Virus record (IMG/VR): IMGVR_UViG_3300050010_000747
Span: 1-22,969 of that record
DNA: 22,969 bases
Source: a virus
Strand: one strand, 5' to 3'
How positions within the stretch are numbered: position 1 is the stretch's first letter; every line of letters begins with the position of its first letter. The position numbers and the translations under genes are program-made. Below the pieces are notes generated by a model. That model saw only the letters and a program-made list of their open reading frames with translations, searched no databases and was not told where the DNA came from. Shown in pieces: positions 5,125 to 22,969 of this stretch.

Positions 5125-5541
5125 ATGAAGACGCGATGCTTTTGCAAATCGGTGCTCGTGCCATTGTCGGCCATCCTGGCAACCATCCTGATCCTGGGCT
5201 GCAAGCCGCCAACGCCTGTGGCCCCGCGGCCGACGCCTGACCAACGACGCCAGGTACAGCCGGACAGGCAACATAACCAGTGCTGCACGCGGCCAAAGAT
5301 CATTGCCTTTGGTGCCGATTGGTGTCCTGCCTGTTGCGCCGGTCATGCGAAGCTGGACGCCTTGGAGCAGATGGGCGTGGAAGTCGAGCGCATCAACATC
5401 GACCAGCATCCTGATCTGATGGCTCAGAACCACATCACGAGCATCCCCGTCTACCTGGTGATCCGCTGCGGTCACGAAACCGTGCGGACCCAGGACATCG
5501 ACGAGGCCGTCCGGCTGATGAACGAAGTGTTCGGGAGGTAG
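5125..5541 (+). CDS. Thioredoxin-like lipoprotein with WCPAC active site
   Basis: The 138-aa protein has a lipoprotein signal (hydrophobic core then LILGC, cysteine 26), a Pro-rich linker, and a thioredoxin domain. The domain contains FGADWCPAC (Cys67 and Cys70), a predicted beta-strand VERINIDQHPDL, and the cis-proline at SIPVY (Pro108). This is a complete redox centre, so it should reduce, form or shuffle disulphides outside the cytoplasm. An AAAGG precedes the start. Most thioredoxins carried by phages are cytoplasmic, so an exported, lipid-anchored one is unusual. It sits in a cluster of exported cysteine-dependent hydrolases that could be its partners. That link is inference. Confidence 0.85.
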   Translation: MKTRCFCKSVLVPLSAILATILILGCKPPTPVAPRPTPDQRRQVQPDRQHNQCCTRPKIIAFGADWCPACCAGHAKLDALEQMGVEVERINIDQHPDLMAQNHITSIPVYLVIRCGHETVRTQDIDEAVRLMNEVFGR

Positions 5542-8120: not shown

Positions 8121-8150
8121 TCCTTTGGAAACGTGCGGAGGTTGTTTGTC

Positions 8151-8588
8151 ATGGAACAAACTGCCCCGCTGACAAAGAAATGCAAAGGACCGTGCAGTCA
8201 AGTTCGGCCGTTGAGTGATTTCCACAGGGACAGGAATCAGTCGGATGGTCGGGTGCCTTGGTGCAAGGCGTGTACACAGGAGCGAGTACAACGTCAGCGA
8301 ACTCCCGCACGGAATCGCAAGTATAACCTGAAAAAGTGTTACGGCATTACACCTGACGACTATGCACGGCTGCTAGCTGCCCAAGGTGGCGTGTGTGCAA
8401 TCTGTGGCTCGCCCAGTCCTGGTCCAAAGGAAACGAATTTTCACGTTGACCACGACCATGCGACGGGTCACCTGCGTGGTCTCCTCTGTGAATGTTGTAA
8501 CCTCGGCATCGGTTACTTCGACAGTCCGGACCATCTTGACAAGGCCGCCGCTTACCTGAGACATAAGGAGTGCCCTCTTGACTGTTGA
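8151..8588 (+). CDS. HNH endonuclease, endonuclease VII family
   Basis: The 145-aa protein has an N-terminal zinc-finger-like part (CKGPCSQVRPLSDF...WCKACTQ) and a C-terminal domain GVCAICG...FHVDHDHATGHLRGLLCECCNLGIG, which is the Cys4-zinc plus DHD signature of endonuclease VII-like recombination endonucleases. GGAGG lies nine bases before ATG 8151. A GTG at 8133 is possible but lacks a site. HNH enzymes beside large terminases can support packaging, and this family also includes mobile endonucleases. By eye its base composition is less GC-rich than its neighbours, hinting at separate acquisition. Its last bases overlap the portal gene start. Confidence 0.9.
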   Translation: MEQTAPLTKKCKGPCSQVRPLSDFHRDRNQSDGRVPWCKACTQERVQRQRTPARNRKYNLKKCYGITPDDYARLLAAQGGVCAICGSPSPGPKETNFHVDHDHATGHLRGLLCECCNLGIGYFDSPDHLDKAAAYLRHKECPLDC

Positions 8589-10476
8589 ATTCATCACCAA
8601 CATCGTCGAGGTCAGGCACCCGAGCTACCTCAGCAGCCTGCTGGACTGGCGCAAGTGGCGTATCTGCTACAACGGCGGCGATTACTTTCGGAAGTTGTAC
8701 CTCCGCAAGTTCACCGCTCGTGAAGACGAGCAGGACTTCCAAGTACGCTCGGACATGACGCCCACCCCCACGTATGCGCGGGTGGCGATCGACGACGTGC
8801 GCAACGCCATTTTCCAACGGCTCAAGGACACCACCCGCCGTGGCGGCAGCCCAGCCTATCAGCGCGCGGTCGGCGGCCTCGACCTGGGCGTCGATCTCCG
8901 CGGCAATACCATGAACGGCTTCCTCGGCATCAAGGTGCTGACCGAGTTGCTCATCATGGGGCGCGTGGGCGTCTACGTAGATTCTCCCTCGGTCCCCGGC
9001 AACGCAACCCTGGCGGACGTGCAAAGGTTTCGTCCCTACTTGTATTTCTACCCCATCGAAGACATTTTGAGCTGGACCTGTGCCAAGCCGGACGAACCGT
9101 CCACGTTCCAGGCGCTCTTGCTCCGCGACGTGGTGCTGAACTTCGATCAGCGGACCTACCTGCCGACTACGACCGTCGAGCGGTTCCGCATGTTGTGGAT
9201 CGACCGCGACACCGGCAAGGTCAACCTGCAATTCCTGGACACCGCCGGCAATCCCATCGACCGCGAGGGGAATCCCGCCGGGGCCGTGGAGTTGGAGTTG
9301 ACCCGCATCCCCTTCGTGCTGTTGGACCTTGGCGACAGCATGATTAAGGATGTCATCAATCACCAGATCGCGCTGCTGAACCTGGTCTCCAGCGACGTGA
9401 ATTACGCCCTGAAGAGCAACTTCCCCTTCTATATCGAGCAGAAGGACCAGCGCGCCGGCGGCCAACACTTGAAGCAAGGGGTCGATGACGACGGCACGGC
9501 GACCACGGGCAGACAAGGCGCTGCGGACACCGACATCAAGGTCGGTGCGACCCAGGGCCGCCATTACGACAAGGGGATGAATGCGCCCGCGTTCATCAAT
9601 CCGTCCGCCGAACCGCTCAAGGCGTCGATGGACCTGCAAGCCAAGCTGGAGGACGACATCCGCAAGCTGATCCATCTGGCCGTGGCGGACACGGCAAACC
9701 GGGCCACGGCGGAATCGAAGTCGATGGACAACCAGGGCCTTGAAGCCGGTTTGTCTTATATCGGCCTGGTGCTGGAAGCAGCGGAGCGGCAGATCGCCGA
9801 GTTTTGGGCGGCTTACGAGGAACGGAGTCCTTCGCAACGGAACGTGGCCACGGTCAAGTATCCTGACCGCTACAGCCTCAAGACGGATTCCGACCGGATT
9901 GCGGAGGCCCAAAGCCTGGTCAAGCTGATGTACGCCGTGCCTGGCCAGAGGGTGAAGCGCGAGTTGGCGAAGAACATTGTGCTGGCTCTTTTGGGCGGCA
10001 AGATCGGCGTCGGTGACATCCAGGCCATCTTCGACGAGATTGACAAAGCCCCTTATGCCACCAGCGACCCCACCACCATCATTGCGGCGGTCGAGGCGGG
10101 CTTGTGCGGCGAGAAGACCGGCTCGATGGCCTTGGGCTTCAACGATGACGAGCACGTCCAGGCGGCTGCGGATCACGCCGCCAGGGCGATTCGGATTTTG
10201 CAGGCGCAGCAGAAGGGCGGTCAACTGGGTTCGCAGACCACCGGGTCCACCAGCCGTGATCCGGCCACCGAGAAGTTTGCTGGTTCGGAATCGACGGCCT
10301 TGAACGAGGTCGCTGGGAACATGAACAGCGACGCCGGGGCACGGGGCGTAGGCGATCTTTCGGCGAATCCCGGTGCTGGCAAGGAAGAGAAAGCGGCCAG
10401 CCGGGATACCACGTTGAGTGACAAGACGAAGCCACCGGTCCGCGGGCCAGGCAAGAACTCTCAACAGGAATCATAG
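8578..10476 (+). CDS. Portal protein (DUF4055-like)
   Basis: The 632-aa protein has the length, position and overall pattern of phage portal proteins, the dodecameric ring through which DNA enters the capsid. Parts include the N-terminal [10 protein letters not shown] and [23 protein letters not shown] region, and the helical stem region with [16 protein letters not shown] and [21 protein letters not shown]. It ends in a polar, likely disordered tail. The start is TTG at 8578. AAGGAG sits seven bases upstream, and no ATG is suitable. The gene overlaps the HNH gene by 11 bases. The match is to the DUF4055-type portals by recall, not by search. Confidence 0.85.
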
Positions 10477-10478
10477 CC

Positions 10479-10802
10479 ATGTTGGAAATCAAAGAAACCT
10501 CGCCCACCAGCGAGTTGCAACACGGACACGTGGTGGTTGGTCCAACAGCGGTGCAGTTGACCATTTTGAATTCTCAACTGAATCGCGGCGTCTTGCTGCG
10601 TGCGCCGGGTGCTGGCGACCTTTATCCGAACACCGACATCATTTTCATCGGCCGCAGCACCGTGACGGCCGACGCAAACCCGGCTACGGGTGGGATGCCC
10701 CTTTTGCCGGGTGCCGTCCTCGAACTGCCAGTGGACGACGCTTCGCAGATTTATGCAGTCTCCCTGACTCCTGCACAAGACCTGGCGTGGATGGGGGTAT
10801 AG
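10479..10802 (+). CDS. Small structural protein, possible capsid decoration or fibre-base protein
   Basis: The 107-aa product follows the portal stop by two bases, with AGGA in front. It is beta-rich ([55 protein letters not shown]). This fits small jelly-roll-like head or spike proteins that sit between portal and capsid genes in many phages. No specific family recognised. It is two bases upstream of the collagen-like gene, so the two are probably made together, and it may be its anchor on the virion. Confidence 0.65.
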
Positions 10803-10804
10803 TC

Positions 10805-11665
10805 ATGTTCGTATACAGCACACCTACTGGCGCGAGCGGTCCGGAAGGGGCGACCGGTCCTTCCGGCGGCCCTACGGGTCCGAGTGGCGCGACAGGCGCT
10901 ACTGGCCCTTCAGGGCGCATCGGACCGACTGGCGCGCAGGGTGCAACTGGCCCTGTTGGTGCTACGGGTGCTGTAGGAGCTACTGGTGCCGCTGGCTACA
11001 CAGGTGCGAGCGGTCCCACAGGGCCTTCTGGACCCAGCGGGGCTACCGGCATCGGGGCTACCGGACCTGCTGGTGCGACTGGCCCTGCTGGCGCGACCGG
11101 GCCAACCGGCGTTGGCGCGACCGGGGCTACCGGTGCGACAGGCCCATCAGGTCCGATTGGTGAGACAGGCCCCGATGGTGCTACAGGACCCCAGGGTGTC
11201 GCCGGAGCAACGGGGCCCGATGGCGGCCCCACGGGACCGGTGGGCGCGACTGGGCCGCAAGGCGATGTTGGAGCAACGGGACCTACTGGGGCGACCGGGC
11301 CCATTGGCGTCGGAGCTACCGGCGCAGTGGGACCGACTGGCGTTACCGGAGCTACGGGACCTAGTGGTGCGACCGGACCTATTGGTGTCGGGGCTACCGG
11401 AGCTACGGGACCTAGCGGTGCGACCGGGCCTTTCGGCGTCGGGGCGACTGGCCCAACCGGACCTGTCGGTGATGTAGGAGACACAGGCCCTACAGGTGCG
11501 ATCGGCCCAACGGGCGCGCGCGGCCCTGCGGGGTCAATTGGCGCGACAGGGCCCACTGGCGCGACTGGCCCGAGCAACGGCGTGCCCAATCCGTCCACTT
11601 TGGCGGACGGCGTGTACTCTTTGAGCGTCACCGGCGGCGTAGCAACCTGGACTCCTGCCAGCTAG
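10805..11665 (+). CDS. Collagen-like fibre protein
   Basis: The 286-aa product is almost entirely Gly-X-Y triplets (about residues 9-257), mainly GAT, GPT, GPS and GAS, with a few short breaks. A capping segment ([29 protein letters not shown]) follows. Such collagen-like runs form trimeric rods in phage fibres. GGGGG precedes ATG 10805. An upstream in-frame extension to 10418 runs through two real genes and is spurious. Many Thr residues in the Y position are potential glycan sites, and a glycosyltransferase gene follows directly. Repetition makes length variation between relatives likely. Confidence 0.9.
10829..11575 (+). repeat. Collagen-type repeat tract (GGN-rich 9-base periodicity)
   Basis: About 249 codons in Gly-X-Y order form a degenerate tandem repeat with 9-base periodicity and recurring words such as GCGACCGG and GCTACGGG. 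Its reverse strand reads as a spurious proline-rich frame. Confidence 0.85.
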
Positions 11666-11721: not shown

Positions 11722-12876
11722 ATGCGATTTCACGTTGTCGCGCTGCCCCACACGCAAACGGCCATGAGCCATTCGGCCTGCGCCTTCACGATGAAGATTT
11801 TGCACTTCTGCCAGATGATGAGCAGCCTTGGACACGAGGTGTACCATTACGGCGTGGAAGGGAGCGAGGTCCAGGATTGTTGCATCGAAGACGTGACCAT
11901 CCTCTCCAAGGCCGAGCAGGGAGGTTTTTTCGGCGCGTATGATCCCAACGCCCTCTACGAAGTCGATTGGAGCGGCCGGGCACCCTACTGGCAGTTGACC
12001 AATGAGCGGGCAGCGGCCGAGATCAACAAGCGGAAGCGGCCGGGCGACTTCGTGTGCCTCATCATGGGCACCATCAACATCCCTCTGGCGAACGCCGTGG
12101 GCACGGACGTGATGGTGGTGGAGTACGGCATCGGCTACAACGGCACCTTCGCCAAGTACCGCGTGTTCGAGTCCTACGCCCACATGCACAAGATTTGGGG
12201 AGCCGAGGGCGGCTTCAACCCGGACGGCCGCTTTTACGACACCGTGATTCCCAACTACCTGAACCCGGCGGACTACCCGCAGGCGTCAGGCGTCAAGGGA
12301 GACTACTACCTTTACCTCGGCCGGCTGATCCAGCGGAAGGGCATCCACATCGCGGTCGAGACCTGCAAGCGGCTGGGAGCCAAGCTGAAGATCGCCGGGC
12401 AGGGATGCGTCAAGGTGGAAGGGAACCGCATTTTCTGTAAAGACGGCGAGGTCTACGAAGGCGACAACTTGGAGTACGTGGGCTTCGCCACGGGCAACAA
12501 GCGGGCCCTGCTTTACCAACAAGCGATCGCCACCTTTGTCCCTACGACATATATCGAGCCCTTCGGCGCGGTAGCGATCGAGAGTCAGATGGCGGGGACG
12601 CCGGCCATCACCACCGACTTCGGGGCTTTTCCCGAGACCGTAGAGCACGGCAAAACGGGCTTCCGCTGCCGCACACTCAACGAGTTTGTGCAGGCGGCCA
12701 AGCACGCACCGTCGCTGGACCCGCAGTACATCCACGATCACGCGGTAGCCCGCTACGCGATGGACAAGGTGAAGTGGAGCTACGAGACCTACTTCAGGCA
12801 GTTGCAGGACTTGTGGGGTGAGGGCTGGTATGCAGTCCACTCCGCGCCAGACGCACGGTGGTTGAACGGCGATTAG
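11722..12876 (+). CDS. Glycosyltransferase, GT4-type
   Basis: The 384-aa protein starts MRFHVVALPHTQTAMS and has the two-domain GT-B look. LGRLIQRKGIHIAVE (Arg201, Lys206) gives the donor-phosphate binding region, and EPFGAVAIES (Glu279, Glu287) is the E-x7-E motif of retaining group 1 transferases. NGTFAKYRVFESYAHMH is in the N-terminal domain. No membrane segment. It follows the collagen-like gene by 56 bases inside the head cluster. Likely acts in the cytoplasm of the infected cell, adding a sugar to a virion protein. The collagen-like fibre, rich in Thr, is the obvious candidate. Modifying host surface sugars is the alternative. Confidence 0.88.
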   Translation: MRFHVVALPHTQTAMSHSACAFTMKILHFCQMMSSLGHEVYHYGVEGSEVQDCCIEDVTILSKAEQGGFFGAYDPNALYEVDWSGRAPYWQLTNERAAAEINKRKRPGDFVCLIMGTINIPLANAVGTDVMVVEYGIGYNGTFAKYRVFESYAHMHKIWGAEGGFNPDGRFYDTVIPNYLNPADYPQASGVKGDYYLYLGRLIQRKGIHIAVETCKRLGAKLKIAGQGCVKVEGNRIFCKDGEVYEGDNLEYVGFATGNKRALLYQQAIATFVPTTYIEPFGAVAIESQMAGTPAITTDFGAFPETVEHGKTGFRCRTLNEFVQAAKHAPSLDPQYIHDHAVARYAMDKVKWSYETYFRQLQDLWGEGWYAVHSAPDARWLNGD

Positions 12877-14599: not shown

Positions 14600-16018
14600 A
14601 TGAATCCGTTGTACCTCTCTCGCGCCGTCGTGGCGTGCTTCGACAACGACAACAGCGCCTTCATTCCGGAACTGTGGGCCGCGGAAGGCTTGGCGATCCT
14701 CCAGGAAAACATGGTCATCGCCAACCTCGTCCACCGCGACTTCGAGAACGAAATCCGCCAGTTCGGCGACGTGGTGAACACCCGCCGGCCGGGCACGTTC
14801 CAGATTCGCCGCAAGGCGGACGGCGACGTTCTCCAGAACCAGGACGCCACGGCCACCAACGTCCAGGTGCCGTTGAACCAGTGGTTCTACACCAGTTTCA
14901 CCATCAAGGATGGCGAGGCCAGCAAGTCGTTCCAAGACCTGGTGGACATCTACCTCCGGCCGGGCATGATGACCATCGCCCGCTCGGTGGACCGCGCCGT
15001 CTTGGGCCGCATCCCCGCCTTCCTCGGCGGCCCGAGCAATCGCGTCGGCCGCCTGGGCAACCTCTCCGCGGCCAACAGCAAGGACTTCGTGCTGGAGGCC
15101 CGCGAGCAACTGAACGTCCAGAAGGCCCCGCTGGAGGGGCGCAACCTGGTGCTCGCCCCGGTGAGCGAGACCGCGCTGTTGAAGAACGAACTGTTCATCG
15201 CCGCCCAGATGCGCGGCGACTTCGGCACGGCGTTGGAAAGCGCCACCCTGGGACGGATTCTCGGGTTCGACACCTACATGGACCAGAACGTGAACAGCGT
15301 CTACGTCGCCAACTGCGACGCGGACACCACGGGCACGGTCACCAACGCCCTGGCCGCGGGATTGGGCGGGTCGCAAGCCGTCACCCTGGCCGACCGCGCC
15401 GTGAGCGTCGGCGAATTCGCCGTCGTGGCCGGCAACGACCAGCCGACCTACATCACCGCCGCGACCACCGGCAGCGGTGCCACCACGGCCATCACCTTGA
15501 ACGAGGTGAACAAGTATGCCACGGCCGGTTCTGCCGCGCTGACGGTTTACCGGTCGTGCGCGGCGAGCGCGACCTATCCCGCAGGCTACGTGGAAGGGAT
15601 GGTCCTGACCGGTTGGAACACCGCGCCGCAAATCGGGCAGATGGTCGCTTTCGGCACCGGTTCGGGCCGCGTGACCTACACCGTGATCGAGTCCTACCTG
15701 TCGAGCGCCGGCCAGCAGACGGTCTACCTGGATCGGCCGCTGGAGCAGACGGTCAACAGCGCCGATCTGTGCTTCCCCGGCCCGGCCGGCGCGCTCAACA
15801 TGGCCTTCCACCGGAACGCCATCGCCCTGGTGACTCGGCCGCTGGCCATCCCCAACAACGCGATGGGCGTACTGTCGCACGTCGGTGTCTACAACGACAT
15901 CGCCATGCGGGTTTCGATGCAGTACAGCATCGCCAACGGCGGCACGGTGGTCAACCTGGACATCCTCGCGGGTGTCGCGGTCTTGGACACCAACCTCTGC
16001 GTCGTGCTCCAGGGCTGA
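14600..16018 (+). CDS. Major capsid protein, P22 coat (gp5) family
   Basis: The 472-aa protein begins MNPLYLSRAVVACFDND and contains PELWAAEGLAILQENMVIANLVHRDFENEI, GDVVNTRRPGTFQIRRK, FTIKDGEASKSFQDLVDIYLRPGM and a later ALLKNELF. This pattern matches P22-type coat proteins (HK97 fold with N-terminal arm, E-loop region and inserted beta domain). Length is close to the 430-residue P22 protein. CGGAG precedes the ATG. It is flanked by terminators on both sides, which fits high independent expression. It should be the shell subunit assembled on the upstream scaffold. Confidence 0.9.
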   Translation: MNPLYLSRAVVACFDNDNSAFIPELWAAEGLAILQENMVIANLVHRDFENEIRQFGDVVNTRRPGTFQIRRKADGDVLQNQDATATNVQVPLNQWFYTSFTIKDGEASKSFQDLVDIYLRPGMMTIARSVDRAVLGRIPAFLGGPSNRVGRLGNLSAANSKDFVLEAREQLNVQKAPLEGRNLVLAPVSETALLKNELFIAAQMRGDFGTALESATLGRILGFDTYMDQNVNSVYVANCDADTTGTVTNALAAGLGGSQAVTLADRAVSVGEFAVVAGNDQPTYITAATTGSGATTAITLNEVNKYATAGSAALTVYRSCAASATYPAGYVEGMVLTGWNTAPQIGQMVAFGTGSGRVTYTVIESYLSSAGQQTVYLDRPLEQTVNSADLCFPGPAGALNMAFHRNAIALVTRPLAIPNNAMGVLSHVGVYNDIAMRVSMQYSIANGGTVVNLDILAGVAVLDTNLCVVLQG

Positions 16019-16105: not shown

Positions 16106-16270
16106 ATGGATGCGTCCAATCTGTTGGTGTTGCTCAAGCAGTACGGGCCGCTGGCGCTGGTGGTCGCGTATTTTCTCTGGCAGAACTGGCTCCGCGAACT
16201 GCGGATGAGCGACCGCATCACGAAGCTGGAAGACGAGCAGCGCGAGGTGTTATTGCCGCTGGTCGAGCGA
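16106..16270 (+). pseudogene. 5' part of a holin-like membrane/coiled-coil gene, split by insertion
   Basis: Fifty-five codons encode MDASNLLVLLKQYGPLALVV... with one membrane helix (about residues 8-24) and a charged coiled coil (RMSDRITKLEDEQREVLL). GGAGAC lies upstream. After ...LPLVER the frame enters the palindrome of the inserted block and stops at 16297 (TAG). The matching 3' part is at 22423-22524. Joined, the protein would have about 88 aa, which is typical of small single-helix phage holin-like proteins. The truncated form may still be made, with nine foreign residues. Holin function is inferred from shape only. Confidence 0.75.
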
Positions 16271-16291
16271 TTATGTGGTGGACCACATAAT
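16270..16291. repeat. Palindrome at the left edge of the block with the RIT-end motif
   Basis: ATTATGTGGT and ACCACATAAT are perfect 10-base arms separated by GG. The ATTATGTGG core also appears in both inner repeats of the RIT ends (19118-19126 and 22334-22342) and, as GTTATGTGG, in both terminal repeats. Two inverted arms around a short centre are what a tyrosine recombinase recognises. Confidence 0.8.
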
Positions 16292-16296
16292 GTGTA

Positions 16297-16338
16297 GGGT
16301 TTTATCGCGTCGTCGCGCAGCGATGACCGATAAAACCC
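16297..16338. other. Stem-loop near the transposase-3' end of the IS91-type unit
   Basis: GGGTTTTATCG (16297-16307) and its reverse complement (16328-16338) form an 11-bp stem with a 20-base loop. IS91-family elements have hairpin structures at the origin end, downstream of the transposase gene. This hairpin is in the right place. It could alternatively be a terminator for the - strand genes. Confidence 0.5.
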
Positions 16339-16629
16339 CATTGAACTGAGCCGCGGAGCGTGAGGGGGCTGAGATCTTCTTCTCTTGCAGATTGGATCAC
16401 AAGGGAGCAAGAGTCGAGTGTTGCTCAGAGGGCGGTGTGGAGGCGGACGTGAGCTGGGAAGGGCAGGAAACGGGAAAGCCGAGGAATTGTGACCAGAGCC
16501 GGAGTGTCTGGGAACGGGATTGCCATGGGGCGAACCCGTCGGTGGGCGCAGAGCATCTCCACAGGCAGAGCGGAGAGCTTGCGATCGCGATAGGGAAGGC
16601 TGTGGTCTGAATCATCATGACGTTGGAAT
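16339..16629. other. Non-coding stretch downstream of the transposase gene
   Basis: Between the hairpin and the transposase stop there is no convincing gene on either strand. The stretch contains the left copy of the 14-base inverted repeat (16341-16354) and is otherwise featureless purine-rich sequence. It is probably the origin-side non-coding end of the IS91-type unit. Confidence 0.5.
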
Positions 16630-17883
16630 TCAGGAGGTATCCCATGGCGGAAGGTGCCTCGGATGCGGTGAATCTGTGGCCTGCGGTGATGAGGATCGCA
16701 CGGGGGGAAGGGTCTCGCAGTGCAGATCCTTGCCGCAGCAAGGACACCGTGCAATGTCGATCCCGAGGAGGACTCGCATCCAGTCGGCGGCTGACTGGGG
16801 CGGGTCGTCTGTCGCTTTCGGCCGAGCCCCCAGCAATTGGCGGCAGTGTGTCAAGAGCGGGCCTTTGACGCAGTTGGCCAGCAAGCCGTAATGCCGGATG
16901 CGAAGGAAGCGGTCCGGCAGGACGTGTTGGAGAAAGCGGTGGAGGAATTCCTCGGCGGGCAGGATATCCGTTTTGAGCCGGTCCCCGTCGCGGCGGTCGC
17001 GATAGCGATATTGCACTTGGCCGTCCTTGCAAGCGAGGATGCGGTGGTTACTGATCGCGACACGATGCGTGTAGCGTCCCAGGTAATCCAGGAGCTTGCG
17101 TGGCCCGGCAAAGGGAGCCTGCGAATACACCACCCACGGTTTCTTTCGGCAGTGCCGCAGCCAACGGCGGCGGGCGGTAGCCTCGGCCAGTTCGGCCAAC
17201 TGAGGCGGCAATTCCAATTGGTCGCGTTCCAACAGTTCGGCCAAGCCATCCAGATACTTGGCACGGAACATCTTGCTCAGCCCACACACCGGAAACAGGA
17301 ATTGCCGCCCCCCGGCGATCCACCGTGAACCGTCGTCGGCCAGCGCGCCGGAAGCAATCAGGCCATGGAGGTGATAGTGGGCCCGCAACTGTTGATCCCA
17401 CGTATGCAGCACGAGCGTGAATCCGACCTTGCCGCCGAACTCGGTGCGGCCGAACTCCAGGAGGGTCTGGGCCGCCGCATCGAACAACAGGCCCAATAGC
17501 GATCGCTGGTTGCGCTCGCTCCAGAGGATCAGTGGATTCAACTCGTGCGGCAGAGTGAACACGTTGTGAAAGTACGGCACCGGCAAGAGTTCTTCCTGGC
17601 GGGCTGTCACCCAGGCGGCCGTGGCTATGGTCTGGCACTTCGGGCAATGACGGTTGCGGCAACTATGGTAGGTGTACCGCTCGAAACCGCAAGACGGGCA
17701 CCAATGGCGATGGCCACCCAAGGCGGCGGTCCGGCAATGGGTAATCGCCCATGCCGCCTTGCGTTGCGACGGTGTCAGGTGATGCGTCTCTTGGTATGCC
17801 TGACCGTACTGCCGAAAGATGTCGGCCAGTTCGCAGGAAGCAGTTTCCACCGGCACCGCACCGCAGGGCGCGGCATCGGACAT
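16630..17883 (-). CDS. IS91-family transposase (HUH, two-tyrosine)
   Basis: The 417-aa protein appears full length. An N-terminal zinc-binding part has CPSC (62, 65) and CRNRHCPKC (75, 80, 83). The HUH metal site is AHYHLHGLI (His171, His173), and the two catalytic tyrosines are in YLGRY (267, 271), followed by THRVAISNHR, a hallmark of this family. A late CPCCG is another zinc knuckle. The enzyme nicks and rejoins single strands during rolling-circle transposition. ATG 17883 lies five bases after the stop of the recombinase gene, so the two are coupled. No frameshift or missing catalytic residue, so it may be active. Confidence 0.95.
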   Translation of the reverse strand: MSDAAPCGAVPVETASCELADIFRQYGQAYQETHHLTPSQRKAAWAITHCRTAALGGHRHWCPSCGFERYTYHSCRNRHCPKCQTIATAAWVTARQEELLPVPYFHNVFTLPHELNPLILWSERNQRSLLGLLFDAAAQTLLEFGRTEFGGKVGFTLVLHTWDQQLRAHYHLHGLIASGALADDGSRWIAGGRQFLFPVCGLSKMFRAKYLDGLAELLERDQLELPPQLAELAEATARRRWLRHCRKKPWVVYSQAPFAGPRKLLDYLGRYTHRVAISNHRILACKDGQVQYRYRDRRDGDRLKTDILPAEEFLHRFLQHVLPDRFLRIRHYGLLANCVKGPLLTHCRQLLGARPKATDDPPQSAADWMRVLLGIDIARCPCCGKDLHCETLPPVRSSSPQATDSPHPRHLPPWDTS

Positions 17884-17888
17884 AGCGA

Positions 17889-18869
17889 TTACTCCGCAAT
17901 GCCGGAGCCCTTGGGCACCCCAGCGTCGGAACCCTTGGGTGTCGGAACGGGGGGTTCCTCGGGCACGAGAACATCGAAGTCCTTGGAGACCGGAACGCCG
18001 GAATCCTGGGGCACCACGCAGTCGGAGTCCTGGGGCAGACGCAGCAGATCGAGGGGGCTGTGGACACCGTCAAGATGTTGACTGGTCACGTGCAAGTACT
18101 TCGCTGTGCTGTTCAGGCTGGCGTGGCCCATCAGACGCTGGATCGTCGGCAACGGCACGCCCGCTTCCATCAGGTGCGTGGCGAAAGAATGTCGCAGGCA
18201 ATGGATACCATGGCCATGCACAATCCCCGCCCGCTCTTTGGCCGCGTAGAAAATCCTTTTCGCTGCGTCCGCCGACAGCGATCCCTTACCGTTTGCGCCC
18301 GGGAACAGCCACCCTTGCTGCGGTCGGTACTGACGCCAGTAGGCCCGCAGTTCCTCCAGCAGTCGGGCCGAAAGCAACGTGTATCGATCCTTGTGCCCCT
18401 TGCCCTGGTTGACTCGAATCAGCATCCGCTCGGAATGAATGTCCTGGGGCCGCAGTTGCACCACCTCGGACACGCGCAACCCGCCGCCGTAAACGGTCAT
18501 CAGCAGGACGCGGTGCTTGAGATTGTTGGTAACCTCGAACAGTTTGGCGATCTCGTTGCGGCTGAGCGGTTCCGGCAACCGGCCGGAACGCTTGGCCGGA
18601 ACGCGAAGAGAGAATTCTTCCTGCCCCAAGACATGGTGGTAGAAGAATTGGATGCCTGCCAGCTTCTGATTGCAAGTGCTGTAGGCCACCTTCCGCACGG
18701 TGATCAGATGATGGAGAAAGTCGCGGATTTCATCGACCGCGATTCCATCAGGCGAACGCCCATAGTGTTGTGCCAACTGCGCGACCGCAGTGACGTACGC
18801 CTCGATGGTGTTGGGAGACTTGCGGTGCAGTTCGAGTTCGTGGATCATTCGTTGACGCAGGGGAGTCAT
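17889..18869 (-). CDS. Tyrosine recombinase of the IS91-type unit, with repeat tail
   Basis: The 326-aa protein starts MTPLRQRMIHELEL at ATG 18869. AAGGAG lies nine bases upstream, and the longer frame to 18989 is unlikely. It has the SAM-like N-terminal domain (SPNTIEAYVTAVAQLAQHYG) and a full catalytic set: Arg in GGLRVSEV, Lys in GKGHKD, HCLRHSFATHL, LMGHASLNSTAKYLH with the tyrosine nucleophile. After the catalytic domain come 49 residues made of six octapeptide repeats. Some IS91-family elements have an accessory recombinase gene upstream of the transposase. The role may be resolution or integration. It ends five bases before the transposase start. Confidence 0.93.
   Translation of the reverse strand: MTPLRQRMIHELELHRKSPNTIEAYVTAVAQLAQHYGRSPDGIAVDEIRDFLHHLITVRKVAYSTCNQKLAGIQFFYHHVLGQEEFSLRVPAKRSGRLPEPLSRNEIAKLFEVTNNLKHRVLLMTVYGGGLRVSEVVQLRPQDIHSERMLIRVNQGKGHKDRYTLLSARLLEELRAYWRQYRPQQGWLFPGANGKGSLSADAAKRIFYAAKERAGIVHGHGIHCLRHSFATHLMEAGVPLPTIQRLMGHASLNSTAKYLHVTSQHLDGVHSPLDLLRLPQDSDCVVPQDSGVPVSKDFDVLVPEEPPVPTPKGSDAGVPKGSGIAE
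17895..18038 (-). repeat. Six tandem copies of a 24-base unit in the recombinase 3' end
   Basis: Read in the gene's direction, the units encode LPQDSDCV, VPQDSGVP, VSKDFDVL, VPEEPPVP, TPKGSDAG and VPKGSGIA. The period is exactly 24 bases. The copies have diverged but keep the Pro/Asp/Ser/Gly pattern and a common CCTKGGG-like core on the + strand. The encoded tail is acidic and likely disordered. Confidence 0.85.
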
Positions 18870-19035
18870 GTCGACAGCTCCTTGGGGAAAACGTTGGAAA
18901 CGGAGATTCGGAACACAACCTCCAGTTTCCTCCCCCCAGTTGCTGCCGACACCCCTACGCACGAAAAAGCCCGACCGAAGCCGGGACAATATCCTCTACC
19001 GTGACCCACTGCCTGCCGCGGAGCGGCTTAGTTCA

Positions 19036-19068
19036 AGTGCTCTTCTGTGGCGCAGTCAGTTATGTGGC
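19036..19068. repeat. Left terminal inverted repeat of the RIT element
   Basis: Starts AGTGCTCTTCTGTGGCG and ends GTTATGTGGC. It matches the reverse complement of 22391-22423 with one difference (T versus C). Confidence 0.92.
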
Positions 19069-19125
19069 GTCCAGCACGCTTCCTCCGTGATTTCTGGACT
19101 CGTTGCTGTGCTGGACGCCACATAA
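19060..19125. repeat. Long inverted repeat inside the left RIT end
   Basis: An 18-base arm (19060-19077) has its perfect reverse complement at 19108-19125, with a 30-base loop. It contains the TTATGTGGCG core in both arms. The right end has only the core part of this symmetry, so the 18-base match is special to the left (3') end of the element. Confidence 0.85.
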
Positions 19126-19133
19126 TCTTTGCC

Positions 19134-20144
19134 CTACAAGGTTCGCAGGAATTCCATGAGCCCTGGATTCTTGCGCCACGGCTTCTTCGTCTTGCCGCCC
19201 TTGATGTCGCACTTCACAAGCGCCTTGGCCTTCATCTCCAGATCGACCTCGGCATACACATTGGTCGTGCTGATGGATACATGGCCCAACCAGGCGCGAA
19301 TGGTGTTGATGTCCACCCTGGCTCGAAGCAAGTGGGTTGCGGTCGTGTGACGGATCGTGTGGGGACTCACACGCTTCTTCGCCACGGACGGCAGTGTCGC
19401 TGCCGTGCGGGCAGCGTGGCGTTCGACCAGCGCATGGACCCCGAATCGCGTGAGCGGTTGCCCGCGGCGGTTGAGAAAGACATGCTCCGATGCCGCTCGA
19501 CGGTCAAGGAGTGGTCGTAATTCGTCAACTGTCCGCGGCCACAACGGACAGCGGCGGCGCTTGTTTCCCTTGCCGCGCAGCACGACGGCCGAGCCGTCGC
19601 GGCTGGATGCCGCACCGAGTTCGAGATCGCCGATCCGCACCTGGGCTACCTCGTCGGCCCGAGCGCCGGTGTTGTACAGAAACAGAAGCACCGCGTAGTC
19701 CCGACGGCCTTGGGGAGTGCGTTGGTTGGGTGCTTTCAGCAACGCATCCAGTTCGTCCTTCTCCAAGTATCCGATCAGCGGGCGCGCGACTTTCTTCGAC
19801 GCGATGGTCTGAATTTGACCGGACCATTCCAGGTGTTCCGGGCTGTACCGACCGATGAATCGCGCCAAGGAATGGATCGCCGCGAGGCGCTGATTTCGCG
19901 TGGCGATCCCGCAGCCGCGAGTTTTCTCCAAATCTTGAAGGAAAGCGCGGGTGCGCGCCGGCGAAACGTCCTCCACCCGAAGCGCTTCGATCCGTCGATG
20001 GGCGGCGCGAGCTATGAACGGCAGAAATTGCTGCAACGTATCCCGATAGCTCGCCTGCGTGTTGCGGGCGAGATTCCGCTCCGCAACGAGGTACTCCAAC
20101 AAGAACCGGCGGACCCAAGGGCTAAGCAAGTCGGTGTTAGTCAT
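19134..20144 (-). CDS. RIT tyrosine recombinase C
   Basis: The 336-aa protein (start MTNTDLLSPWVRRFLLEYL) is the third gene of the trio. Catalytic residues appear in NTGARADEVAQ (Arg), RGKGNKRR (Lys), HTIRHTTATHLL (His, Arg) and WLGHVSISTTNVYAEVD (His, Tyr). It ends in a basic tail (KGGKTKKPWRKN) that may contact DNA. AAGGAGG lies seven bases before ATG 20144. The start overlaps the stop of recombinase B by eight bases. Sequence up to 20192 is in frame but without its own site. In RIT elements the three proteins are thought to act together on the element ends. Confidence 0.92.
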   Translation of the reverse strand: MTNTDLLSPWVRRFLLEYLVAERNLARNTQASYRDTLQQFLPFIARAAHRRIEALRVEDVSPARTRAFLQDLEKTRGCGIATRNQRLAAIHSLARFIGRYSPEHLEWSGQIQTIASKKVARPLIGYLEKDELDALLKAPNQRTPQGRRDYAVLLFLYNTGARADEVAQVRIGDLELGAASSRDGSAVVLRGKGNKRRRCPLWPRTVDELRPLLDRRAASEHVFLNRRGQPLTRFGVHALVERHAARTAATLPSVAKKRVSPHTIRHTTATHLLRARVDINTIRAWLGHVSISTTNVYAEVDLEMKAKALVKCDIKGGKTKKPWRKNPGLMEFLRTL

Positions 20145-21072
20145 GGCGTCCCTCCTTCCCGGCGTAGCGCTCGAAGCGCTGGCTGGCTTCACGAAGAAGC
20201 TCGGGCGTCATGCTCAGGTACACTTGCGTGTCCTGCAAATGGGCGTGGCCCAGATAGACCGACAATTGGTGCAGGAGTCGCTGTACGTCGGCACCCTGCT
20301 TGTACCAGGAGGTGAGACGGTGAACGGCGAACGCATGGCGCAGGTCGTGAATCCGCGGTTGTTGGCGTGCGTCAGTCCGGCGGATGCCCGCGCGATCACA
20401 CGTAACGCGGAAGTTCCTGTCGAGCAGCCTCATGCCGATGAGGCCGCCCTTTGCGGTTACGAAAAAGGGGGCGTCGGCAGGCCGTCCCTTCGGCCGAGTG
20501 CGGTCGTACTGAACCAAGACCCGGTTCAGTTGCGATCCCACGGGAACCAGTCGTGTCTTGCCGAACTTCGTGTTCCGAATCGTCAGGATGGACTTGCTCA
20601 AATCCACGTCGGCGCGCGTGAGCTGTGTCGCCTCCCGCAGGCGCAAGCCGGCTCCATAGTAGACCAGAATCAGCACGCGAAACGTTGCCGGCTCCAAGAC
20701 GGTGTTGCCATGCGGGTGAGGCTCAATCGCTTGAATAAGGCGGCGGACTTCTTCCTGCGTGTAGACGTAGGGAACGAATGCCGGCGGGCACTTCGGCATG
20801 ACGGTCGGAAGAGGGGCTGTGGTGATGTAGCCACGGCTCACGGCGTATTGGAAGAAGCCCCGCAGGCGGCTCAACTTGCTGAACCAGGTTTCGGTTACGG
20901 GCCTGGCTTTGCCCAGAAAAGCATCCACGTGCTCCGTGCGAATACCGGCAATGGTGGCTCGTGCGCCACGGGCACGGCCCAAGGCCCGGAGATGTTTTGC
21001 ATCCGTGGTGAATGGCGATCCAAGCGACTGGCGCAAGGAAATGTACTGTTCGATCAGACGTTGGAGGTTCAT
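20137..21072 (-). CDS. RIT tyrosine recombinase B
   Basis: The 311-aa protein starts MNLQRLIEQYISLRQSLG. Catalytic set: YYGAGLRLREATQL (Arg), TKFGKTR (Lys), IHDLRHAFAVHRL (His, Arg), YLGHAHLQDTQVYLSM (His, Tyr). The insertion TSWYKQGADVQRLLHQLSVYLGH between box II halves is typical of the second RIT protein type. ATG 21072 overlaps the stop of gene A (ATGA), and GGGAGG is just upstream, so an upstream extension to 21282 is spurious. The tight overlaps argue for production of all three proteins in fixed ratio. Confidence 0.92.
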   Translation of the reverse strand: MNLQRLIEQYISLRQSLGSPFTTDAKHLRALGRARGARATIAGIRTEHVDAFLGKARPVTETWFSKLSRLRGFFQYAVSRGYITTAPLPTVMPKCPPAFVPYVYTQEEVRRLIQAIEPHPHGNTVLEPATFRVLILVYYGAGLRLREATQLTRADVDLSKSILTIRNTKFGKTRLVPVGSQLNRVLVQYDRTRPKGRPADAPFFVTAKGGLIGMRLLDRNFRVTCDRAGIRRTDARQQPRIHDLRHAFAVHRLTSWYKQGADVQRLLHQLSVYLGHAHLQDTQVYLSMTPELLREASQRFERYAGKEGRHD

Positions 21073-22274
21073 AGGACACCTCCCATGTCGAAATCGGCCA
21101 CTTCCCGGAGGCCGGGAAGATCGACTTTGGCATAAATCCGTGTGCTTTCGGGGTTCGTGTGTCCCAGTTGATCGCCAATCTCCTTCAGCGACAGGCCAGC
21201 GGCCAGCAATTGCGTGGCGCAGGCATGACGCAGGGCATGAGGACCGTAGTGTGGAAGTGAGACGTGTAGGGATCGCAACCACTTGCTGACCACATCCGAA
21301 AGCGAACTCTGCTTAATCGGGCGGAGAGGAGCCCTCAGCGATAAAAACAATTCCCGATGCGCGGATCGCGGTCGCGCCTCTTGCAGATAACGCAGGATTG
21401 CATCCCCGACAGACCGCGTTAGCGGATAGGTTCGGACCCGCCCCGACTTGGAAGATACGACACGGAACACTTCATGCTCCCAGTCGAAATCTTCAAGCCG
21501 CAGGCGGTTCACCTCCCCAGCCCGGAGACCGTAAATGGCGAGTAGCATCAGCATTGCTCGGGCACGGATGCTGTGCGGCTGGTCGCCTTCGGTCATGGCG
21601 AGCAACCGCCGCACATCGTCCCACGACGGTCCCAGTGGCAACGATGCCTGCGAGTAGACCCGCGGAGCGCAAATGGATGCCGCCAATCCCTTGCGGCACC
21701 AACCGCGTGCTTCCGCAAAACGAAAGAAAGCCCGCAGTGTGCCGGCAGCGGTCTGAACCGTATTTCGTGAATAGCCTCCGGGGGCGAGCATCTTCTGAAA
21801 CGCCGTGTCGATCCGATGAGGAGTGATCGCGTGCAGAGAACCACCTTGGACACGCAGTTGCTTGAAAAACTGCCCCACCCGCGAGCAACGGCTGCAAATG
21901 GTCGCGGGCGACAGTTCCGCTTCATGCTCCATGTAATCAGCGAACGCTTTGATCTTCTTCGCCCAGGGCGTCAGCGGGGCGGGGCGCTGTTGCAGACGCC
22001 CCATGAATTGGAGCCATCGGACGGCAAGTCGATAGAGCCAGCGCCGCTTGGCCGTCTTGCGCTTGACTTCGTTGGGAGTCAGGGCCTTTCGAGGTCGGCT
22101 GGTCAATCCACGCATCTGTGCAATTGCGAGCAGCCCCTGCGCCGTCACCCGCAAACCCTTCCGGGTGTAGCCCTGGTCCGCGAGATGTGCCAGGAAGGCA
22201 AGGCGTTCTTCCAACATCGGGCCTTTGCGGTAGCGCGCCACAACACCGGGAACCTTGAAAATCTGATCGAACAT
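21069..22274 (-). CDS. RIT tyrosine recombinase A
   Basis: The 401-aa protein starts MFDQIFKVPGVVARYRKGP. It is the first and largest of the trio, with an extra N-terminal region of about 100 residues before the SAM-like domain (FADYMEHEAELSPATICSRCSRV). Catalytic set: IYGLRAGEVNRL (Arg), SSKSGRVR (Lys), HALRHACATQLL (His, Arg), QLGHTNPESTRIYAKVD (His, Tyr). GGAGG lies seven bases before ATG 22274; a longer frame to 22319 lacks a site. A possible weak promoter (TTGGTG, 17 bases, TATTTC on the - strand) lies upstream, inside the right end, so the recombinases could regulate their own expression. Confidence 0.92.
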   Translation of the reverse strand: MFDQIFKVPGVVARYRKGPMLEERLAFLAHLADQGYTRKGLRVTAQGLLAIAQMRGLTSRPRKALTPNEVKRKTAKRRWLYRLAVRWLQFMGRLQQRPAPLTPWAKKIKAFADYMEHEAELSPATICSRCSRVGQFFKQLRVQGGSLHAITPHRIDTAFQKMLAPGGYSRNTVQTAAGTLRAFFRFAEARGWCRKGLAASICAPRVYSQASLPLGPSWDDVRRLLAMTEGDQPHSIRARAMLMLLAIYGLRAGEVNRLRLEDFDWEHEVFRVVSSKSGRVRTYPLTRSVGDAILRYLQEARPRSAHRELFLSLRAPLRPIKQSSLSDVVSKWLRSLHVSLPHYGPHALRHACATQLLAAGLSLKEIGDQLGHTNPESTRIYAKVDLPGLREVADFDMGGVL

Positions 22275-22333
22275 AGTCGAACCTCCGGGGAGAAAGGGGA
22301 AACGAAATACTCTCCCCATAGCGTAACACCAAA

Positions 22334-22423
22334 ATTATGTGGCGCAGAAAATCGGCGAAACGCTGAAATACCGAGGAAGGAACGAGCTAGGCCACATAAC
22401 TGGCTGCGCCACAGAAGAGCACT
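22334..22423. repeat. Right RIT end with terminal inverted repeat
   Basis: The 33-bp terminal repeat is 22391-22423. An inverted ATTATGTGGCG copy is at 22334-22344. The 90-base layout mirrors the 91-base left end (19036-19126), although the spacer between the two repeats differs in sequence. Confidence 0.88.
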
Positions 22424-22524
22424 GCACCGACGTAATCACGCTCAATACGAGCATGATGGAGCGTTTGGAGAAGTCGCTGAGCGAGCGTTCCGACTGCCCT
22501 CTGCGAAACAACAAGTGCCCTTAG
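22423..22524 (+). pseudogene. 3' part of the split holin-like gene
   Basis: From the edge of the RIT end the frame reads CTDVITLNTSMMERLEKSL and ends DCPLRNNKCP at TAG 22522-22524. TDVI.NT..MERL is the sort of helical tail seen after LEDEQREVLLPLVER in small phage membrane proteins, so it continues the part at 16106-16270. A frame starting at 22339 runs through the RIT end into it but is a chance fusion. The first base of TGC belongs to the terminal repeat, so the exact junction is uncertain. Confidence 0.72.
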
Positions 22525-22534
22525 GGATAGCGCC

Positions 22535-22969
22535 ATGCACCAGGCCAACCCGATCCACAACCGTTTCATGCGGTTGTCCATGTACATCCACGAGCGTCAG
22601 CACGGCGTGACGCTGGTTGTCCGCCGCAAGCTGGCGGTCGTTTCCAGCACAGAGACGGGCCAGACGACGTGGACGATTACGCAGTGGAAGATACCGCGGG
22701 TGGTGGTGCTTCCCGAGAAGCGTCAACGCGAGGTGCGCCAGAACGCCGGGGCGATGGCAGCCAACCGGGCGATCATACAGGGCTCCTCTTTTGACACCGG
22801 CGGCCGACACTTTTTGTTCGATCGCTCGGAAGTTCCCCGTGAGTTGGTGCTGCAAAAGGACGACTGGATCGTCTTCAACAACAAGCACTATGACATCGAA
22901 AGCGTCACGGACTACGAGTACGGCAGGGCTTGGTTGGTGATTGCCAAGGAACTGGAGGGGCGCGTGGAA
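22535..22969 (+). CDS. Phage neck/head-closure-like protein, 3' end outside the window
   Basis: The frame is open from ATG 22535 to the window end (145 codons, no stop). AGGGATAG lies just before it, and it starts 10 bases after the split gene, so it continues the phage operon. The protein has VTLVVRRKL...TGQTTWTITQWKI (beta) and a late DDWIVFNNKHYDIESVTDYEYGRAWLVIAKEL, which is like the D-x-I-x-x-x-x-x-x-Y-x-I strand pattern of head-closure/joining proteins. That role also fits its place after the capsid gene. The family call is by pattern only. Insertion of the mobile block upstream may reduce its transcription. Confidence 0.7.
   Translation, partial: MHQANPIHNRFMRLSMYIHERQHGVTLVVRRKLAVVSSTETGQTTWTITQWKIPRVVVLPEKRQREVRQNAGAMAANRAIIQGSSFDTGGRHFLFDRSEVPRELVLQKDDWIVFNNKHYDIESVTDYEYGRAWLVIAKELEGRVE

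Follow-up and report, generated by a model that had tools for sequence, protein, structure and literature searches.

RIT elements (recombinase in trio) contain three overlapping tyrosine recombinase genes in a fixed order, are about 3.4 kb long, have terminal inverted repeats and occur as insertions in genes that belong to other mobile elements (Van Houdt 2012, PMC3414803; Cupriavidus metallidurans CH34, PMC2864759). Sequence variation at the ends of RITs was noted in 2012 (PMC3414803). In the sections of PMC3414803, PMC2864759 and PMC10214605 consulted here, the ends and the transposition of these elements are treated as unresolved, and a 2023 table in the last of these gives all three of RIT target specificity, empty site and movement as untested.

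SE elements, GInts and Tn554 resemble the system described below in having several cooperating tyrosine recombinases, a 6-bp spacer or footprint at the ends and target specificity. They differ from RITs in having non-recombinase partners (Srap, GinD, TnpC) or an inactive recombinase-like protein (Tfp, GinC), and no outboard palindrome with an inverted core is described for them; these statements apply to the consulted sections of PMC10214605 and PMC5385486.

The stretch of DNA analyzed here, a 22,969-bp virus record of IMG/VR (the window), contains a RIT in a phage gene. It is like the RITs of PMC3414803 and PMC2864759 in its trio in fixed order, its length of about 3.4 kb, its inverted repeats and its insertion within a mobile-element gene. 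The features added here are a 20-bp palindrome 6 bp outboard of one RIT end, three related 6-bp cores, a polarity rule and a gene of a phage structural module as a repeated target. We found none of these described in the consulted sections of PMC3414803, PMC2864759 and PMC10214605.

The split phage gene and the inserted DNA

The initial annotation proposed that 16106-16270 and 22423-22524 are the two parts of one small phage membrane-protein gene, and that their join gives the outer limits of a mobile block. The join is exact to the base and yields a translation of 88 amino acids plus a stop; the split separates the C-terminal 33 amino acids from the rest. A homologue without gap or stop through residues 48-64 of the joined protein is present in 73 of 80 related coat-protein loci, and the homologues among these loci are up to 97.7% identical to the joined protein. 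In the DNA of the relatives, the equivalent of window positions ~16265-16269 runs directly into that of 22417-22422. For example, the uninterrupted site L034, which is 94.5-94.8% identical to the window DNA, reads GTC-GAGCAC-TGCACGG at the point where the window holds 6.15 kb.

These empty sites and gap-free homologues establish that one gene was split by an insertion, that the join marks the outer limits of the inserted DNA and that the phage module continues past it. As was also proposed, the next phage gene begins 10 bases after the joined stop, at 22535. Neither a natural end of the homologues near residue 55 nor a 3' part confined to RIT elements was observed; the 3' part has its matches in phages. 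A search of the joined 88-residue protein against phage genome records gave no match.

The inserted DNA was at first taken for one 6-kb block, but it is really a RIT, an IS91-family element and an outboard palindrome. The order is X1 (6 bp), 20-bp palindrome, IS91-family element, s (6 bp), RIT and X2 (6 bp), where X1, s and X2 are the cores (Table 1).

Table 1. Positions of the phage genes, cores and mobile elements in the window.
Feature	Position	Strand	Basis
Major coat protein (P22-like), upstream of split gene	14600..16018	+	Pfam P22_CoatProtein 4.4e-24; PHROG major head protein 1.1e-51
5' part of split phage gene, codons 1-55	16106..16270	+	gap-free homologue of the join in 73/80 relatives
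X1, 6-bp core GAGCGA, still within the phage gene	16265..16270	+	placement beside the palindrome; L034 has GAGCAC
Outboard palindrome of RIT unit, TTATGTGGTGGACCACATAA	16271..16290		same 20-mer in 9 viral contigs; absent from empty sites
IS91-family element, 2,746 bp, exactly between palindrome and s	16291..19036	-	limits inferred from adjoining RIT parts
IS91 family Y2 (HUH) transposase with zinc-binding domain	16630..17883	-	NF033538 416 bits; Y2_Tnp 4.6e-58
Tyrosine recombinase of IS91-like element	17889..18989	-	Phage_integrase 1.7e-34
s, inner 6-bp core GTGCTC	19037..19042		reverse complement of X2
RIT element, 3,374 bp	19043..22416	-	inverted repeats and three recombinases
RitC, third RIT tyrosine recombinase gene	19134..20192	-	Phage_integrase 4.9e-32
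RitB, second RIT tyrosine recombinase gene	20137..21072	-	Phage_integrase 4.7e-19
RitA, first RIT tyrosine recombinase gene	21069..22319	-	Phage_integrase 4.6e-34
X2, 6-bp core GAGCAC	22417..22422	+	same as uninterrupted L034 site
3' part of split phage gene, 33 codons and stop	22423..22524	+	translation of the join; relatives
Next phage gene, runs off the window	22535..22969	+	kept after the split gene in relatives

The assignment to the RITs follows from three adjacent, overlapping tyrosine recombinase genes, all on the minus strand, and from a length that agrees with the ~3.4-3.5 kb expected of an element with terminal inverted repeats. The repeats (19036-19068 and 22391-22423) are 33 bp long and 97% complementary. 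Over its full length RitA is 44-47% identical to that of trios in Mesorhizobium and Paraburkholderia phytofirmans OLGA172, and the empty sites, together with near-identical copies in different phages, would suggest that the element is mobile. SE elements and GInts would be expected to have Tfp or GinC and the partners Srap or GinD, whereas the three recombinase genes, all with Phage_integrase domains, are the only ORFs within 19043-22416.

The second element is assigned to the IS91 family by its transposase, whose score lies well above the curated NF033538 cut-off of 125 bits. The hallmarks of this family are oriIS and terIS ends, a GAAC or CAAG target and no target duplication. The window's element has a hairpin at its left end and TTCAAG at its right junction, although its relatives (42-46% identity) are too distant to fix the ends. 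It is like the IS91 family in its Y2 transposase with a zinc-binding domain and differs in its added tyrosine recombinase gene and in its site exactly between the RIT palindrome and a core. The added recombinase scores 175 bits against TIGR02249, below the integron integrase cut-off of 265. Since the element parts the palindrome from s, and these two are neighbours elsewhere, it was probably inserted after the RIT. In a Defluviicoccus bin (L167:4085-4372) the end of an IS91-like element, with a tyrosine recombinase start MTQLRQRM, abuts the 6-bp core of a RIT in exactly the manner of the window, and so IS91-like elements may favour this spot.

Some other ORFs of the phage were noted. One between terminase and portal (8133-8588) resembles, by eye, a phage nuclease of the HNH or endonuclease VII type, and an ORF at 5125-5541, recognized by eye only, is thioredoxin-like with a WCPAC motif. 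The structural region contains a collagen-like protein with GXT repeats (10418-11665), which is followed by a glycosyltransferase (11722-12876; PHROG 3408, 1.7e-77). A search for the host with the coat protein, made in 294 genomes from the phylum to which an Anammoximicrobium bin belongs, gave only weak matches of 25-30% identity.

The outboard palindrome and the 6-bp cores

Nine viral contigs contain the window's palindrome as an exact 20-mer. Eight of them have it 6 bp from a RIT end; the ninth, almost identical to the window, has the IS91-like element between palindrome and RIT. The M. huakuii plasmids p_2 and p_3 carry two RITs with identical bodies, each with a palindrome, AAATGTGTTTGAGCACATTT, 6 bp from opposite ends. 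A genome scan added 80 RIT loci, including loci from Planctomycetota, Acidobacteriota, several proteobacterial groups, Bacteroidota and Nitrospirota; an earlier genome scan with one M. huakuii RitA had given no confirmed locus, and a second scan of the viral data with a RitA alignment yielded no additional contigs.

Both ends and flanks are readable in 43 RIT loci (the near-duplicates L175 and L177 are counted as two). A palindrome of about 20 bp lies 6 bp outside exactly one RIT end, and never both, in 38 of the 43, which come from many phyla; it is at the RitA end in 21 loci and at the RitC end in 17. None of 359 control windows held a palindrome in which all eight outer pairs match. When the spacing was left free and only a palindrome was required, the half-site matched the RIT arm best at a distance of 6 bp in 33 of 34 loci, with an agreement of 6.24 of 8 positions at that distance and 1.3-3.2 at others. 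Palindrome half-site and RIT arm also covary between families; the observed sum was reached in none of 20,000 shuffles. Judged from these sequences, the layout X-palindrome-X'-RIT-X is general among RITs. The five loci with no recognizable palindrome are L120, L121, L140, L158 and L167. That of L167 is perhaps missing through the IS91-like insert, and the other four may represent decay, mis-called ends or a different layout.

The three cores of a locus are related to each other. Over the 38 loci the mean agreement is 5.03 of 6 bases between X1 and the reverse complement of s, 5.00 between X2 and the reverse complement of s and 5.26 between X1 and X2, compared with 1.7-1.9 for the neighbouring six bases and 1.73 when cores are compared across loci. 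Therefore, the outermost six bases of the apparent RIT inverted repeats are core or target sequence, which accounts for the variation at the ends noted in 2012 (PMC3414803). All three (X1, X2 and the reverse complement of s) are identical in 15 of the 38 loci; however, all three differ in eight, and s is unlike X in L136 and L175, so core identity is not strictly needed. In five loci X1 equals X2 and both are unlike s. Some of the agreement comes from shared target genes, because in the subfamily with GTATGG arms and a common target (n = 8) it is only slightly higher within a locus (5.25) than between loci (4.68).

Empty sites, polarity and repeated insertion in phages

Empty sites are also found in bacteria. 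When the flanks of the P. phytofirmans RIT (L105) are joined through a single core, 300 of 300 bases align to istA of IS21 on several Caballeronia and Paraburkholderia plasmids. For the M. huakuii locus L104, uninterrupted group II intron regions on plasmids of Agrobacterium tumefaciens and M. mediterraneum read GAGCCG-GATGCG-GGAATTCC. The palindrome, s and the RIT are all missing from both kinds of empty site, and therefore they arrived together.

The side on which the palindrome lies displays a simple pattern. Sixteen loci could be grouped by the similarity of their flanks into five bacterial target families of two to five loci each, namely two IS21-type sites, a site common to Accumulibacter and a Ktedonobacterales bin, a tyrosine recombinase gene associated with IS91, and group II introns. 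Within a family the palindrome never changes sides relative to the target, which holds for all 16 loci (by chance, 1 in 2,048), whereas both RIT orientations occur in each of the five families. For example, one Accumulibacter genome has two RITs, 99.94% identical and in opposite orientation, with the same palindrome and the same flank (one of them, L130, is truncated at its RitA end). In the phage gene, the palindrome adjoins the 5' part in the window, L087, L093 and L096.

A RIT occupies this same phage codon in at least four phage lineages, and so the codon looks like a preferred RIT target. The RIT ends (460 bp) are 90.4% identical between the window and L087, 99.6% between L087 and L093 and 95.9% between L087 and L096, and the phage flanks of the same pairs are 71.7%, 68.1% and 66.5% identical. 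Overall, identity is 88-99.6% in the RIT ends but no more than 66-72% in most of the phage flanks (one pair 85%), so the RITs arrived separately in most lineages. A second phage gene is the site of RITs of the same family in L088/L194 and L189, and the first gene is intact in L194 and L189, which are related phages. L085 (whole) and L086:1-13242 display another arrangement, in which a RIT lies between outward-facing copies of the 3' part of the split gene and its downstream genes, from two different phages. These contigs probably represent misassembly across RITs that are present in both orientations, though they come from two metagenomes; real genomes with two tail modules were judged less likely.

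How the RIT unit may move

A unit consisting of the RIT and the 20-bp palindrome was inserted at codons 54-55 of the small phage membrane-protein gene, and we think it somewhat likely, and likelier than the alternatives below, that it moves as a circle with two equivalent cores. The circle would have the order RIT-x-palindrome-s, with the palindrome between two inverted core sites, each made up of a RIT arm, 6 bp and a palindrome arm. Either core, x or s, could recombine with the target, and since both are flanked in the same way, both would offer it the same polarity. The palindrome would thus always land on the same side of the target and the RIT in either orientation. The reacting core and the target would become X1 and X2, and the other core would stay inside as s. 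In the window, the IS91-family element would have come later, exactly between the palindrome and the inner core. Presumably there is a division of labour among the three recombinases.

The M. huakuii loci L103 and L104 fit integration by alternative cores, in that a circle from L103 (GGCATC, CGCATC) reacting through GGCATC with CGCATC would give X1, s and X2 of L104 and the flip of the RIT. No circle, excision product or recombination event was seen, and the pattern of a circle junction had no matches in the viral contigs. Exact core triplets (15 of 38) are commoner than the circle alone requires; flipping of the RIT in place would equalize the cores and may explain why they are so many.

Tn916-type coupling sequences have a 6-bp overlap that tolerates mismatch, and integron attC and the att site of the CTX phage have inverted half-sites that are able to form a folded core. 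The RIT differs from these in having two cores that flank a separate palindromic module, which would travel with the element. A folded core is also the basis of the main alternative, a single-strand route, which we regard as possible but rather doubtful. A strand of RIT-x-palindrome-s-RIT would fold so that x pairs with s to make a full core, and one strand exchange would be followed by replication. Such a hairpin is possible by design, because x is an inverted copy of s and the RIT arms are matched by the half-sites of the palindrome. According to the consulted sections of PMC10214605, SE elements, which are related, show strand bias and leave 6-bp footprints. However, this route predicts that X1 or X2 equals the reverse complement of s, as opposed to the five loci in which X1 and X2 agree and s does not, and the free orientation of the RIT requires an extra step.

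The other explanations are less persuasive. That the palindrome-RIT unit spreads in some other way, e.g., by homologous recombination between carrier phages, so that the shared codon reflects one old insertion, is unlikely; all phage-gene cases are indeed at one codon, but recombination would bring the flanks along, and these are far less alike than the RIT ends. We consider it very unlikely that the arrangement arose through an assembly misjoin, or as a defective prophage decayed, and not by insertion within a phage population. These are metagenome contigs, and repeated RITs are prone to misjoining, of which L085 and L086 are probable examples. However, the arrangement recurs at 99.96% identity in contig 3300031524_001228, which may stem from a separate assembly of one and the same sample, and L087, L093 and L096 share the junction in other phages. 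The decaying prophage suggested in the initial annotation is not supported: the terminase, portal and coat genes are intact ORFs with family matches, RITs lie at one codon in several phage lineages, and decay is not needed to explain the insertion. Finally, it is scarcely credible that the palindrome belongs to the target, or is a hairpin that arose by chance or serves regulation, with the RIT confined to the DNA between its inverted repeats. Earlier work does give only inverted repeats with variable ends (PMC3414803), but phage and bacterial empty sites without the palindrome rule it out as a pre-existing target, and its spacing and covariation with the RIT arm are far from chance.

More generally, we give about even weight to the view that RITs are two-part elements, in which a recombinase-coding part with symmetric ends is joined by a separate palindromic module of 20 bp, and two equivalent cores obtain their other half from this module. 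The module would fix the polarity toward the target, the RIT could insert either way and the inner core would record an earlier site.

In conclusion, the outboard palindrome suggests how these poorly understood elements move, and the repeated insertion of RITs at one phage codon is a further surprise. The layout defines the RIT ends exactly and supplies 6-bp cores, named plasmids with empty sites and a rule of polarity, and RIT transposition is therefore directly testable.
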